Part shown: positions 2,183-14,208 of the stretch, one piece after another
How the letters are laid out: each line of letters opens with the position of its first letter
Position numbering within the stretch: position 1 is the stretch's first letter
Notes under the pieces: model-generated
What the model saw: only the letters and a program-made list of their open reading frames with translations
The model's database searches: none
Told to the model about the DNA's origin: nothing
Position numbers and translations under genes: made by a program
From: Ecdyonurus torrentis
Lineage: Eukaryota > Arthropoda > Insecta > Ephemeroptera > Heptageniidae
Assembly (NCBI GenBank): GCA_949318235.1
Contig: OX439137.1
Location: 21,694,518-21,758,517, forward strand
DNA length: 64,000 bases
Reading direction: 5' to 3'

Positions 2183-5006
2183 TTACTTGCTGTCCACAAT
2201 TTTTAATGTATCTAATGCTTCATCTGCTAGAATGCAACGTAGATTTTTCGACACTTCATTTTTCAATTCTATGGCTTTCTTGTGACAGCCAACATGTTCT
2301 AGTGTATAAGCCAAGTCATTCATTGTTCTCAATGTATATGCATGTTTCTCTCCAAGTACTCGGCGTCGCTTTTCTAAACAGTCCTCAAAAATGTTCAGTG
2401 CTTCTTTATAACGTCCAAGTTTTCCCATTATAAGTGCTATATTGTGCATAGTAGTCAATGTATCTACATGTTCATGTCCTAAAATATTGCTTAACGTTTT
2501 AAAACATTCCTCATATAATGCTAACGCTTTCTCAAAACATTCAAGTTGCACCAGGCAGTTAGCCATATTGTGCATTGTGTTCAATGTAAAGTCATGTTTA
2601 TTTCCTAAAACATGACGTTGTTTTTCTAGCACATTCTCATATAATAAGAGTGCTTCCTTGTGATGACTAAGTTCTCGTAGCATATGAGCCATGTTGTTCA
2701 TTGTTTTTAAAGTATCTGGATGTCGAGATCCTAAAACACGGCGTTGTTTCTGTAAAACGTCGTTAAACAACTTAAGAGCATCTTCGTGTCGTCCAAGCTC
2801 TCCTAGTATGCAAGACTTACTATGCATTGTAGACAATGTATCCATGTGTTCTTCTCCAAGAACTCGACGTTGAAACTCCAAAACAAACTCATATAATCCC
2901 AATGCCACCTTGTGATATCCAAGATATCCTAGTATGTGCGCCTTATTGTACATTGTAGCCACAGTGTATACATGTTTATCTCCTAGCATACAACGCATAT
3001 TTGCTAACACTATCTCAGTCAAAGCTAGTGCTTCCTGATAACGTCCAATCTCTGCAAGTGTGTAAGCCATGTTTTGCATTGTTTTTAATGTATCTATTGC
3101 TTTATACCCTAACATACAACGTTGATTTTCTATAACGTGTACATACAAATTTAAAGCTTTCTTGTGACAGCCATGTTGTGACAGTGTATAGGCCAAGTCA
3201 TGCATTGTCATCAATGTATATACATGTTTCTCTCCAAGTACTCGATGTCGCTTTTCTAAACAGTCCTCAAAAATTTTCAGTGCGTCTTTATAACGTCCAA
3301 GTTTTCCCATTATAAGAGCTATATTGTGCATAGTAGTCAATGTATCTACATTTTCATGTCCTATAACACTGCCCAACGTCTTACAACATTCCTCATATAA
3401 TGCTAACGCTTTTTCAAAACATCCAAGTTCTACCAGGCAGTTAGCCATATTGTGCATTGTGTTCAATGTAAAGTCATGTTTATTTCCTAAAACGCGACGT
3501 TGATTTTCTAGCACATTCTCATATAATAAGAGTGCTTCTTTGTGACGACTAAGTTCTCCTAGTATATGGGCCATATTGTGCATTGTTTTTAAAGTATCTG
3601 GATGTCGAGCTCCTAAAACACGACGTTGCTTCTGTAAAACGTCGTTAAATAACTTAAGAGCATCTTCGTGTCGTCCAATCTCTCCTAGTATGCAAGACTT
3701 ACTATGCATTGTAGACAATGTATCCATGTGTTCTTCTCCAAGAACTGGACGTTGAAACTCCAACACAAACTCATATAATCCCAAAGCCACTTTATGACAT
3801 CCAAGAAATCCTAGTATGTGCGCTTTGTTGTGCATGGTAGCCACAGTATCTACATGTTTATCTCCTAGCATACAACGCCGTTTTACTAACACTATCTCAA
3901 TCAAAGCCAGTGCTTCCTGATAACGTCCAATTTCTGCCAGTGTGTAAGCCATGTTGTGCATAGTTTTCAATGTGTCTAATGCTTCATCTCCTAGAATGCA
4001 ACGTAGATTTTTCAACACTTTCTCATACAATTCTAGGGCTTCCTTGTGACAGCCAAATTGTGCCAGTGTATAGGCCAAGTCATGCATTGTAGTCAATGTA
4101 TATACATGTTTTTTTCCAAGTACTCGACGTCGCTTTTCTAAACAGTCTTTAAAAAGTTTCAGTGCTTCCTTGAAACAACCAAGTTTTCCCATTGTGAGAG
4201 CTACATTGTGCATTGTTATCAATGTATCTTTATGTTCATATCCAAAAACACTGCGTAGCATTTTAAGGCACTCTTCATATAATGCTAACGCCTCCTCATA
4301 ACATCCAAGTTCTACCAGGCAGTTAGCCATATTGTGCATTGTGTTCAATGTAATTTCATGTCTGTTTCCTAAAACACGACGTTGATTTTCTAACAAATTC
4401 TTATATAATGAGAGTGATTCCTTATGACGACCAAGTTCTCCTAGAATATAAGCCATGTTGCGCATTGTTTTTAATGTGTCTCGGTTTTTAATTCCTAAAA
4501 CACGGCGCTGTTTTTTTAATACTTCATCATATAATCCAAGTGCTTCCTTGTGATGTCCATGTTTCTCCAGCATGTATGCTATATTGTGCATCGTAGATAA
4601 TATATTACTTTGTTTATCGCCTAATACAAGAAGTTGAATCGTCAGCACGTACTTATATAATATCAATGCCTCTTCATTTAGTTCTTGTTCTCCTAGAATG
4701 TATGCTTTGTCGTTTATTTTTTTCAATGTATATACATCTCTATCTCCTGGAATATAACAGCGTTTCTTTTTTTCTTTAAGCAACGTAAATGCTTCCTTGT
4801 GACGCCCATGCTGTGTCACTGTGTGAGTATTTTTATGCAGTGAAGTAGCTGTAACTTCATGTTTTTCTCTCTGCACAATATACAGTTTCTCGAAAGAGAT
4901 CTTTATTAATTTGAGTATCTCTTTGTGGTGGTCAAGTTTACTCAGAAAACTAGATTGTTTTTGTATGGTAAATAATAAATCCTGAAGGAAATAACTTGAA
5001 ACACAT
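2183..5006 (-). CDS. Last exon: C-terminal kinesin-light-chain-type TPR array
   Basis: This exon codes for residues 898-1837. A pyrimidine tract and AG lie at 5008-5007, and the frame stays open from there to the TAA at 2183. After a linker (about 898-960) come about 21 tandem 42-residue units with the pattern TLxTMHNxAxxLxxLGxxxEAL, each ending near RRVLG; this is the TPR_10/TPR_12 type seen in kinesin light chains and many animal NLR-like proteins. A tempting start at 4876 is only a GTG inside an open frame, so the exon, not that codon, defines the beginning. The last unit breaks off after DTLK, and the final residues VDSK diverge from the repeat, so the array ends mid-repeat. Role: a protein-protein interaction solenoid, probably the sensor or partner-binding end of the protein. 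Confidence 0.88.
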
Positions 5007-13377: not shown

Positions 13378-14208
13378 ATATATTGAGCAAGTATCATCTA
13401 CTTCAGTTACAGAGCTAATACAATTAGAATATTTATTAATCCATTGGTTAACTAATTCATTAGTTATAAAATAATCTTTAAGATTACAGTTTTCTAAGAT
13501 TTCTGAAAGGATTACTTTATAAATCATTTCAAAAGCATATTGTTTGTCTTTAGGAAGCCAATTTTTTATTGTTTCCTGAATTACATTCTTTATTTCATCT
13601 TTATTTTTTTGACTAAATGCTAAAAATGATCTATTTGATAATAACTCTTTTGCTTTGTCTAAGTCATCAAATTTACAATTTTTAATACACTCTGCTGCAC
13701 TTTGTTTTTGAAAGTCAATACTATAAAGTTGGGGTTCTAAATACTTTAATTCACCACAAATTGAATCTAATTTTATAATTGATAAATCTTCTAAAATGTT
13801 ATTATCTGGTTTTCTATTTGTAAAATATACGTAGTTTCTAGTTTCATCTTCTGCTTTTTCAGGAAGAGTTGGTATTGAAAAGTGAGTAAAATTAAATCTA
13901 CTTTTGATACAAGTAATTTCATTCAGATCAATGTCAATCTTACGACTATTACACTTTGTTACATATTTTACTGAAAAATAAAATGTTTTTGTTATATTAT
14001 TTGTAATTCTTAATAATATATCATCAAATTTATCATTATTTTCATATTCTATATTCCAACCTAATTTAAAATTATTTTTTGCAATCAATGTTTCATAAAT
14101 AGCGAGTAAAAATACAACGTAAATTTCAAAAAAATATCCATCTGCAGCATTAGCATTTTGATTTCTTACAAGGCTGTTATTATTATTATTATTATTACTT
14201 TCATCCAT
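13339..14208 (-). CDS. PD-(D/E)xK nuclease-like N-terminal module (or small separate gene)
   Basis: 289 residues from the ATG at 14208; a TTG two codons earlier is open but not a likely start. After a poly-Asn stretch it reads ADGYFFEIYVVFLLAIYE, then NFKLGWNIEYE, KFDDILLR and FYFSVKYV. This follows the order hydrophobic helix, E, FDD, xxK of the PD-(D/E)xK-like domain that opens many invertebrate NACHT/NB-ARC/ankyrin proteins and resembles the DUF4297/Cap4 nuclease. The last motif is SxK rather than QxK or ExK, so activity is uncertain. The remaining 180 residues are helical and unrecognised. It is 119 bases upstream of the STAND frame on the same strand, so it is probably its 5' exon. Confidence 0.6.
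   Translation of the reverse strand: MDESNNNNNNNSLVRNQNANAADGYFFEIYVVFLLAIYETLIAKNNFKLGWNIEYENNDKFDDILLRITNNITKTFYFSVKYVTKCNSRKIDIDLNEITCIKSRFNFTHFSIPTLPEKAEDETRNYVYFTNRKPDNNILEDLSIIKLDSICGELKYLEPQLYSIDFQKQSAAECIKNCKFDDLDKAKELLSNRSFLAFSQKNKDEIKNVIQETIKNWLPKDKQYAFEMIYKVILSEILENCNLKDYFITNELVNQWINKYSNCISSVTEVDDTCSIYVNQDELNEMCSP

Follow-up and report, generated by a model that had tools for sequence, protein, structure and literature searches.

Background

Animal immune receptors that have been studied in depth recruit caspases as separate proteins, by means of adaptor domains. The regulator c-FLIP has tandem DEDs and, to our knowledge, neither NB-ARC nor TPR, whereas at the locus described here Pfam reports no DED (and no CARD) in the upstream open reading frame (E1), the NB-ARC exon (E2) or the caspase part. 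The human pseudo-caspase c-FLIP(L) keeps a caspase fold without the dyad: R315 and Y360 replace His and Cys, the latter being the same Cys-to-Tyr change as here (PMC7586951; this and the following sources were available in part). The His became Arg there and Phe here, and the likeness seen here concerns residues rather than a link to caspase-8/10.

Other animal systems share some of the parts. Cnidarian NACHT/NB-ARC-TPR receptors (Hydra, Acropora) combine NB-ARC with TPR in large families, but in the available text their partners are DEATH, DED, CARD, TIR or glycosyltransferase, with no caspase listed (PMC7642931, PMC4083563). Bivalve caspases include homologs without His, or without His and Cys, like here; unlike the present gene, NB-ARC and TPR have 0 occurrences in the accessible part of that paper (PMC7836458). 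TNFR-caspase and LRR-caspase hybrids of amphioxus fuse animal receptor parts to a caspase, as here, but keep QACXG, unlike the dead caspase of this locus (PMC2575513). For an NLR of the sponge D. avara, CASc is listed in a figure legend, on which this comparison is based (PMC12909245).

Bacteria offer further parallels. In one cyanobacterial protein NACHT is followed by HEAT repeats and these by a metacaspase, so a caspase placed after an NTPase is not unique; the bacterial caspase homologs with NACHT, NB-ARC or TPR are metacaspases, and the insertion of a dead caspase into TPRs is not described in the available part of this source (PMC3501461). Bacterial pseudo-orthocaspases with an FS dyad show His to Phe and a dead p20 followed by C-terminal TPR, as here, but they are without p10 and have Cys to Ser, with 0 occurrences of NB-ARC in the accessible text (PMC6426788). 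Bacterial iSTAND modules and inactive effector caspases bring both inactive domain kinds into conflict systems; these are multi-gene, and the likeness is drawn from their description (PMC8195603, PMC7159879). For inactive STAND modules the part of the review at hand states no functional precedent in well-studied eukaryotic systems (PMC8195603).

Here we describe a locus of Ecdyonurus torrentis in a window of 64 kb (the whole stretch of DNA that was analysed). Our preferred reading, to which we assign a probability of roughly 45%, is that it encodes one 1,837-residue STAND protein with a dead caspase and a Walker-less NB-ARC, which might act as a c-FLIP(L)-like regulator of the animal's own active caspases.

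Gene structure

Seven minus-strand exons, from 13219 to 2183, can be spliced at GT...AG sites with phases that match, giving 1,837 residues with 0 stops, in agreement with the preliminary description, which had joined them by eye. Since about 7.3% of all triplets over the six frames of the window are stops, this open length lies far beyond chance.

11284..13219, minus strand: exon 1 (E2), NB-ARC and helical region; ATG at 13219 as start of the 1,837-residue gene
11321..11596, minus strand: kinesin-light-chain-like TPR helices before the caspase, approximate limits (two-paralog profile, E 0.0013)
10558..10591, minus strand: exon 2, 34-nt microexon, phase 1 to 2 (splice sites and phase)
9336..9535, minus strand: exon 3, first part of caspase p20 (PDB caspase alignment)
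7000..7172, minus strand: exon 4, second part of caspase p20 (PDB caspase alignment)
5852..5981, minus strand: exon 5, p20 end and linker (PDB caspase alignment)
5262..5478, minus strand: exon 6, caspase p10 (PDB caspase alignment)
2183..5006, minus strand: exon 7, C-terminal TPR exon including the stop (open reading frame and TPR profile)
2210..4477, minus strand: 18 TPR units of 42 aa each, with a 7-unit (294-aa) higher-order repeat

The predicted order of NB-ARC, kinesin-light-chain-like TPR helices, caspase domain and 18 TPRs is the one first proposed, and profiles recover each part: NB-ARC at 2.6e-6, the caspase fold in the exons at 5262-9535 at 9.8e-12 (PF00656; PDB caspase-7 at 1.6e-9) and the exon 7 TPRs at 4.3e-154 (TPR_12). 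The helices before the caspase are unmatched by Pfam and by a local TPR model, and hhalign against TPR is weak (P 0.019, probability 2.4%). With a two-paralog profile against PDB, the best matches are kinesin light chains (E = 0.0013), and all 16 matches at E <= 1 are kinesin-light-chain or TPR-like entries. Pfam reports no LRR or death-fold domain of the NLR kind, and TPR instead. AlphaFold models made without alignment (mean pLDDT 34.5 and 37.3) were too poor to use. No matches were obtained with tRNA and Rfam scans of the whole window, nor with a tandem-repeat scan of positions 2100-5100. Overall, seven exons and this domain order are well supported as a prediction from sequence.

The join of exons 1, 2 and 3 is based on splice sites and phase, and exon 2 is short and predicted in the same way; microexons like it are expected 0.07 times in the interval between exons 1 and 3, and two were counted there. 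Alternatively, there might be two adjacent genes, one with NB-ARC that ends after 11284 and one with caspase and TPR (exons 3-7). In favour of this, exon 2 is short, and ten of the 43 listed caspase clusters (the present one and nine others) have TPR but no listed NB-ARC exons downstream within 20 and 15 kb. Against it, a scan of 11283-9536 (donors restricted to a few GT patterns, exons <= 400 nt) gave a lone candidate start exon with a phase-2 donor, which is weak. Moreover, a paralog of E2 elsewhere in the genome (C8; 46% identity, E 9e-156) has NB-ARC and TPR exons, the TPR exon following E2 with no caspase match, and, judged by eye, a donor-like site in phase 1 occupies the corresponding position behind E2 in both paralogs. 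We regard two genes as unlikely.

Upstream open reading frame

13339..14208, minus strand: E1, most likely separate upstream open reading frame of 289 aa, with no passing junction to E2

The preliminary description had extended the gene over 2183..14208. This holds for 13219-2183, whereas 13339-14208 is most likely an open reading frame separate from the 1,837-residue gene, because of 13 E1-E2 junctions in the window that are frame-consistent and retain the conserved beginning of the NB-ARC exon, none passes a simple acceptor test, and a search of the C8 paralog gave no frame-consistent junction at all. A joined 2,110-aa protein was dropped after the microexon count and this junction and acceptor test; dicistronic expression by trans-splicing was considered. 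An E1 paralog adjoins the C8 copy as well (35% identity, E 1e-27), and the pair has dN/dS 0.591/1.009. A likeness of E1 to PD-(D/E)XK-like nucleases, drawn from arthropod proteins (FDDIL...FSxK), is only a lead: searches including Pfam, PADLOC and NCBIfam gave no support. In the protein database, which is seemingly poor in animals, E1 had no match at E 1 among 517 candidates, and E1-E2 (929 aa) none at E 0.01 among 7,992 candidates scored.

A degenerate NB-ARC

12878..13195, minus strand: Pfam NB-ARC match (2.6e-6, 27.3 bits, cut-off 23.5)
13103..13126, minus strand: degenerate Walker A, GEQGSGKK (GKCGSGKK in the C8 paralog)
12872..12889, minus strand: degenerate Walker B, LIIFLN (xxxFDN in 11 other exons)

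The NB-ARC profile scores above the Pfam cut-off here and below it in the C8 paralog (21.0 bits). Both Walker A GK[S/T] and the Walker B Asp are absent, and the replacements (GKK and FLN) are common to E2 and its paralog. The other NB-ARC exons read have GK[S/T] in 13/13 cases and FDN in 11/13, in a survey whose pattern required GxxGxGK and in which exons deviating from it would not show up. E2 reaches 5.3e-7 against NCBIfam FxSxx_TPR, but with 28.5 bits at a cut-off of 300, and PADLOC gave no match for E1 and E2. Between E2 and its C8 paralog dN/dS is 0.407/0.916, indicating purifying selection.

The shared Walker changes, as well as the C8 paralog without caspase match, would also suit a nucleotide-blind receptor of nucleic acid or another ligand, in which the caspase serves as a structural spacer or homodimer clamp within the solenoid; bacterial inactive STAND domains have been proposed to sense nucleic acid (PMC8195603, available in part). 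Such a receptor nevertheless does not account for the presence of a caspase cassette that retains its core amid many His-bearing relatives in the genome, and we consider it very unlikely.

A dead caspase

7117-7119 (exon 4), minus strand: catalytic His to Phe (TFA where T/S-HG is expected)
5976-5978 (exon 5), minus strand: catalytic Cys to Tyr (AYQC where ACRG is expected)
9451-9453 (exon 3), minus strand: S1 Arg to Cys (Arg in 9/9 other aligned exons)
7000-7002 (exon 4), minus strand: S1 Gln to Met (Gln or Asn in 24/27 others)
5471-5473 (exon 6), minus strand: p10 S1 Arg to Gln (Arg in 5/5 others)

Judged from these positions, the caspase domain is catalytically dead: 0/5 residues of the catalytic dyad and S1 pocket are kept, the first S1 Arg being less clearly placed by alignment to caspase-7 than by alignment to the genome's other exons. 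The same genome contains caspase relatives whose His or Cys exon is intact. The catalytic His persists in 25 of the 28 further p20 exons examined, of which 24 are the complete non-self matches of a p20 genome search and four come from another search; this set excludes a dead p20 at C17:15044456 as well as additional p20 matches of the C17 array that bear His. The exon following these p20 exons begins with AC[R/Q] in 7/7 loci read, by a pattern that itself required Cys.

It might be argued that the caspase part is becoming a pseudogene and has lost catalysis without gaining a function. All five key residues are lost together, the p20 exon is just 27-46% identical to the other p20 exons, and the dN/dS values cover the TPR repeats and the E1 and E2 pairs. 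On the other hand, the 240 caspase codons are free of stops and frameshifts, 22/26 conserved p20 columns are kept with losses at H, G, D and Q only, and purifying selection is seen in the NB-ARC exon and in the C-terminal TPR units (dN/dS 0.104/0.290), in line with the initial view that the gene is not an obvious pseudogene. Three other His-less p20 exons keep 22/26, 22/27 and 24/27 conserved columns, so core retention is not special to this gene. Decay seems quite unlikely to us.

Origin of the caspase cassette

Exons 3-6 form a four-exon cassette of 720 nt with symmetric phase 2-2 between the TPR regions, matching the genome's caspase module (phase 2-2, an intron of phase 0 separating Q from A). 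Inspection by eye of ten relatives places the cassette start in phase 2 in each, and the p10 end lies in phase 2 in four. No exon upstream of the cassette is shared among nine stretches (the present one included); the sole match of this search fell on the start of the cassette, in two relatives. Among 34 database matches of the caspase-TPR part (1,181 aa) the caspase is absent in 3/3 checked with Pfam (TPR being present), and PF00656 appears in 0/34 listed domain sets.

Many caspase exons at the least adjoin NB-ARC or TPR exons in this genome, as read from exon neighbourhoods and not gene models; all genome-wide counts concern the best candidates and are lower bounds. These exons belong to the same module: their start and end phases agree, as does the intron separating Q from A at the loci where it was read. 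They lie upstream of NB-ARC and mostly keep His, whereas here the caspase is dead and follows the NB-ARC. Caspase exons occur upstream at 13 of 37 listed NB-ARC loci (which do not include C12:26770723, a match with a stop, and C17:15041287, an NB-ARC open reading frame), and only the present locus has them solely downstream. The earlier remark that a caspase between two TPR regions is an unusual order holds. The preliminary reading of a STAND protein with a caspase thus stands in its architecture, but had overlooked the dead caspase, the degenerate NB-ARC and the caspase exon neighbours throughout the genome.

Exon shuffling probably brought the cassette into a phase-2 intron lying between the TPR regions, and catalysis was probably lost afterwards. 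An extended version, in which the cassette was shuffled through its symmetric phase-2 ends into a nucleotide-blind STAND TPR solenoid, lost catalysis and now pairs, as a single master switch, with the active caspase-NB-ARC and caspase-TPR receptors across the genome and tunes their threshold, is doubtful.

Conclusions

With all five cutting residues lost, the protein would likely regulate the animal's active caspases rather than cut. By analogy with c-FLIP(L), we infer a pseudo-caspase regulator function on a STAND-TPR scaffold. The two TPR regions may form a solenoid that binds a ligand or partner, and the NB-ARC could serve as a scaffold without nucleotide hydrolysis. Using its p10 face, the caspase domain might bind an active caspase whose exons lie next to NB-ARC or TPR exons elsewhere in the genome, and such pairing would restrain or activate the partner, depending on dose, as c-FLIP(L) does with caspase-8.

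At this locus a STAND protein that lacks the Walker signature residues is predicted to contain a dead caspase, and caspase exons next to NB-ARC or TPR exons are numerous in the genome. If the model is true, one could test whether a brake or booster of the c-FLIP kind evolved in this animal as part of its receptor, and the locus would be a clear example of exon shuffling through introns of symmetric phase, with which the caspase-free paralog can be compared.

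Gene model and upstream reading frame

The seven minus-strand exons agree in phase at every join, and from the ATG at 13219 to a single stop they encode exactly the 1,837 residues counted in the preliminary description:

13207-11284, minus strand: exon 1 (E2), reading-frame start at the ATG at 13219
10591-10558, minus strand: exon 2, 34 nt
9535-9336, minus strand: exon 3, caspase part
7172-7000, minus strand: exon 4, caspase part
5981-5852, minus strand: exon 5, caspase part
5478-5262, minus strand: exon 6, caspase part
5006-2183, minus strand: exon 7, TPR

That description had extended the gene to 14208. 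The reading frame at 14208-13339 (E1) is better read as a separate upstream ORF, and on sequence grounds we treat it as such, because no junction to E2 passes here and none at all is found in the paralog on contig C8, a second E1/E2-like copy. Splicing E1 onto E2 would give 2,110 residues; of the 13 junctions that are frame-consistent and retain the conserved NB-ARC exon start, none passes an acceptor test passed by all six of the gene's remaining acceptors. In C8, zero frame-consistent E1-E2 junctions preserve that start, and AG is absent from the interval between the in-frame stop and the exon start. An E1-like ORF adjoins the gene in both copies. E1 carries the motifs FDDIL and FSxK and may resemble the domain at the N terminus of STAND proteins in arthropods.

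The E2-caspase junction could also separate two genes. The 34-nt exon 2 is possibly a chance match (0.07 expected in the interval against two counted), and elsewhere the genome has caspase-TPR clusters for which no NB-ARC is listed. Against this, the exon phases match across the joins, a donor-like site follows E2 in the same phase in both paralogs (read by eye), and among the patterns tried the interval offers just one candidate start exon, a weak one.

The intron separating the two p20 exons holds an insert of about 1.9 kb (7335-9261) with inverted CAGTGGCGTAGCCAGG at its ends, in appearance a DNA transposon or a MITE. Two further intronic inverted repeats are MITE-like (5506-5770, 108-nt arms, 99%; 10888-11055, 72-nt arms, 90%). 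A gene for a sodium:neurotransmitter symporter (SLC6) has plus-strand exons at 45732-46070 (PF00209, 1.6e-16) and 54933-55352 (PF00209, 1.3e-33).

Domain content

E2 contains an NB-ARC domain (Pfam 2.6e-6, exceeding the cut-off). The caspase match proposed for the exons at 5262-9535 is borne out across exons 3-6 by Pfam (9.8e-12) and by PDB, where caspase-7 structures rank first (1.6e-9). The caspase does lie between two TPR regions. The C-terminal one is exon 7 (TPR_12, 4.3e-154): eighteen 42-residue units, among which a higher-order repeat spans seven units. Eleven unit pairs give a dN/dS of 0.104/0.290, and the first, second and third codon positions differ 58, 35 and 83 times (462 each). 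The N-terminal helices have no Pfam match, are missed by a TPR model made from the gene's own 18 units, and reach P = 0.019 (probability 2.4%) with hhalign. Their placement as a TPR region, weakly supported, comes from a profile of E2 and its C8 paralog, which finds kinesin light chain first in PDB (E = 0.0013); all 16 matches at E <= 1 are kinesin-light-chain or TPR-like.

Loss of catalytic residues

The caspase domain is predicted to be dead: aligned to caspase-7, the catalytic His is Phe and the catalytic Cys is Tyr. Caspase exons of the same genome are the better comparison. Outside this gene, the His is kept in 25 of the 28 p20 exons read, which comprise every one of the 24 non-self matches from one genome search and four from another. 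The exon after p20 opens with AC[R/Q] in 7/7 loci, a selected count since the search pattern demanded Cys, with the choice among three candidates at one locus made by downstream sequence. In the first p20 exon, Cys replaces the S1 Arg (Arg in 9/9 others), the p10 Arg is Gln (Arg in 5/5), and the residue before the intron is Met (Gln or Asn in 24/27). Judged by its conserved columns, the p20 core is retained despite the lost catalysis: 22 of 26 are kept, the losses being H, G, D and Q, and three other His-less p20 exons keep 22/26, 22/27 and 24/27. A 541-codon ORF at C26:40492341-40493963 has two tandem caspase domains, both without His, since TYG and TFG stand at the dyad motif (TYG/SACVI and TFG/NACNT).

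The NB-ARC, by its motifs, is degenerate as well, with GEQGSGKK at Walker A and FLN at Walker B; C8 reads GKCGSGKK and FLN. GK[S/T] is present in 13/13 other NB-ARC exons and FDN in 11 (the second pattern being unmatched in two), in a set collected via GxxGxGK, so that exons lacking this pattern would escape listing. The E2 pair is 46% identical with a dN/dS of 0.407/0.916, and the E1 pair has 0.591/1.009 (both Nei-Gojobori, own script, without standard errors). The Walker changes are thus common to two copies that show overall purifying selection.

Caspase and NB-ARC loci across the genome

The genome (503 Mb, 117 contigs; the window is C21:21694518-21758517) contains at least 70 caspase exon matches and at least 34 NB-ARC matches, to which a further search added three. 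A GC content of 27.4% and the NB-ARC and TPR genes are reminiscent of Hydra, with its published 24.7-25.4% GC, a likeness that does not bear on identity. The following counts, for which two caspase searches were merged, describe proximity, not proven fusion. Among the 37 NB-ARC loci listed, 13 are preceded within 15 kb by caspase exons of the same strand: in 11 these lie solely upstream, and in two, both in the C17 tandem array, on either side; the window locus alone has them solely downstream. The 43 caspase clusters listed comprise 13 with a downstream NB-ARC, 10 with a downstream TPR and no listed NB-ARC (the window locus included) and 20 with neither, one of which, on C17, does have an unlisted NB-ARC ORF downstream. 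At C17:15019658-15062101 caspase and NB-ARC exons alternate on a single strand. Within this array, the ORF at 15044456-15044998 is likely another dead caspase, because its p20 dyad motifs read TKC and IDAKY.

Exons 3-6 sum to 720 nt, beginning and ending in phase 2. The phase-2 start recurs in ten relatives (by eye) and the phase-2 p10 end in four; loci on C4 and C26, outside the clade, start differently and terminate in a stop. The C8 paralog carries E1-, E2- and TPR-like exons, and tblastn for caspase exons over 30 kb gave a best E of 0.24. Either insertion of a symmetric caspase cassette here or its loss from C8 would explain the phase-2 ends and the C8 copy without a caspase match.

Possible role

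Dead caspases are retained elsewhere: bacterial FS pseudo-orthocaspases carry a C-terminal TPR (PMC6426788), inactive effector caspases are known in bacteria (PMC7159879) and dyad-less caspases in bivalves (PMC7836458). Related combinations include published amphioxus receptor-caspase hybrids (PMC2575513), a sponge NLR figure legend naming CASc (PMC12909245) and a cyanobacterial protein with NACHT followed by metacaspase (PMC3501461). In the literature searched, with subscription literature partly covered, we recognised no description of an NB-ARC protein from an animal in which a dead caspase lies between TPRs. In c-FLIP(L), Arg and Tyr replace His and Cys, and its pairing with caspase-8 restrains or promotes the latter in a dose-dependent way (PMC7586951). 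The Cys-to-Tyr change is common to both; here it stands in a protein with long TPR arrays, in a genome with many His-bearing relatives. By the tests applied, the gene lies outside the c-FLIP family because it has no DED. Overall, the best reading is that of a putative regulator of the caspases of the same genome, in which the pseudo-caspase product would act on the His-bearing members.
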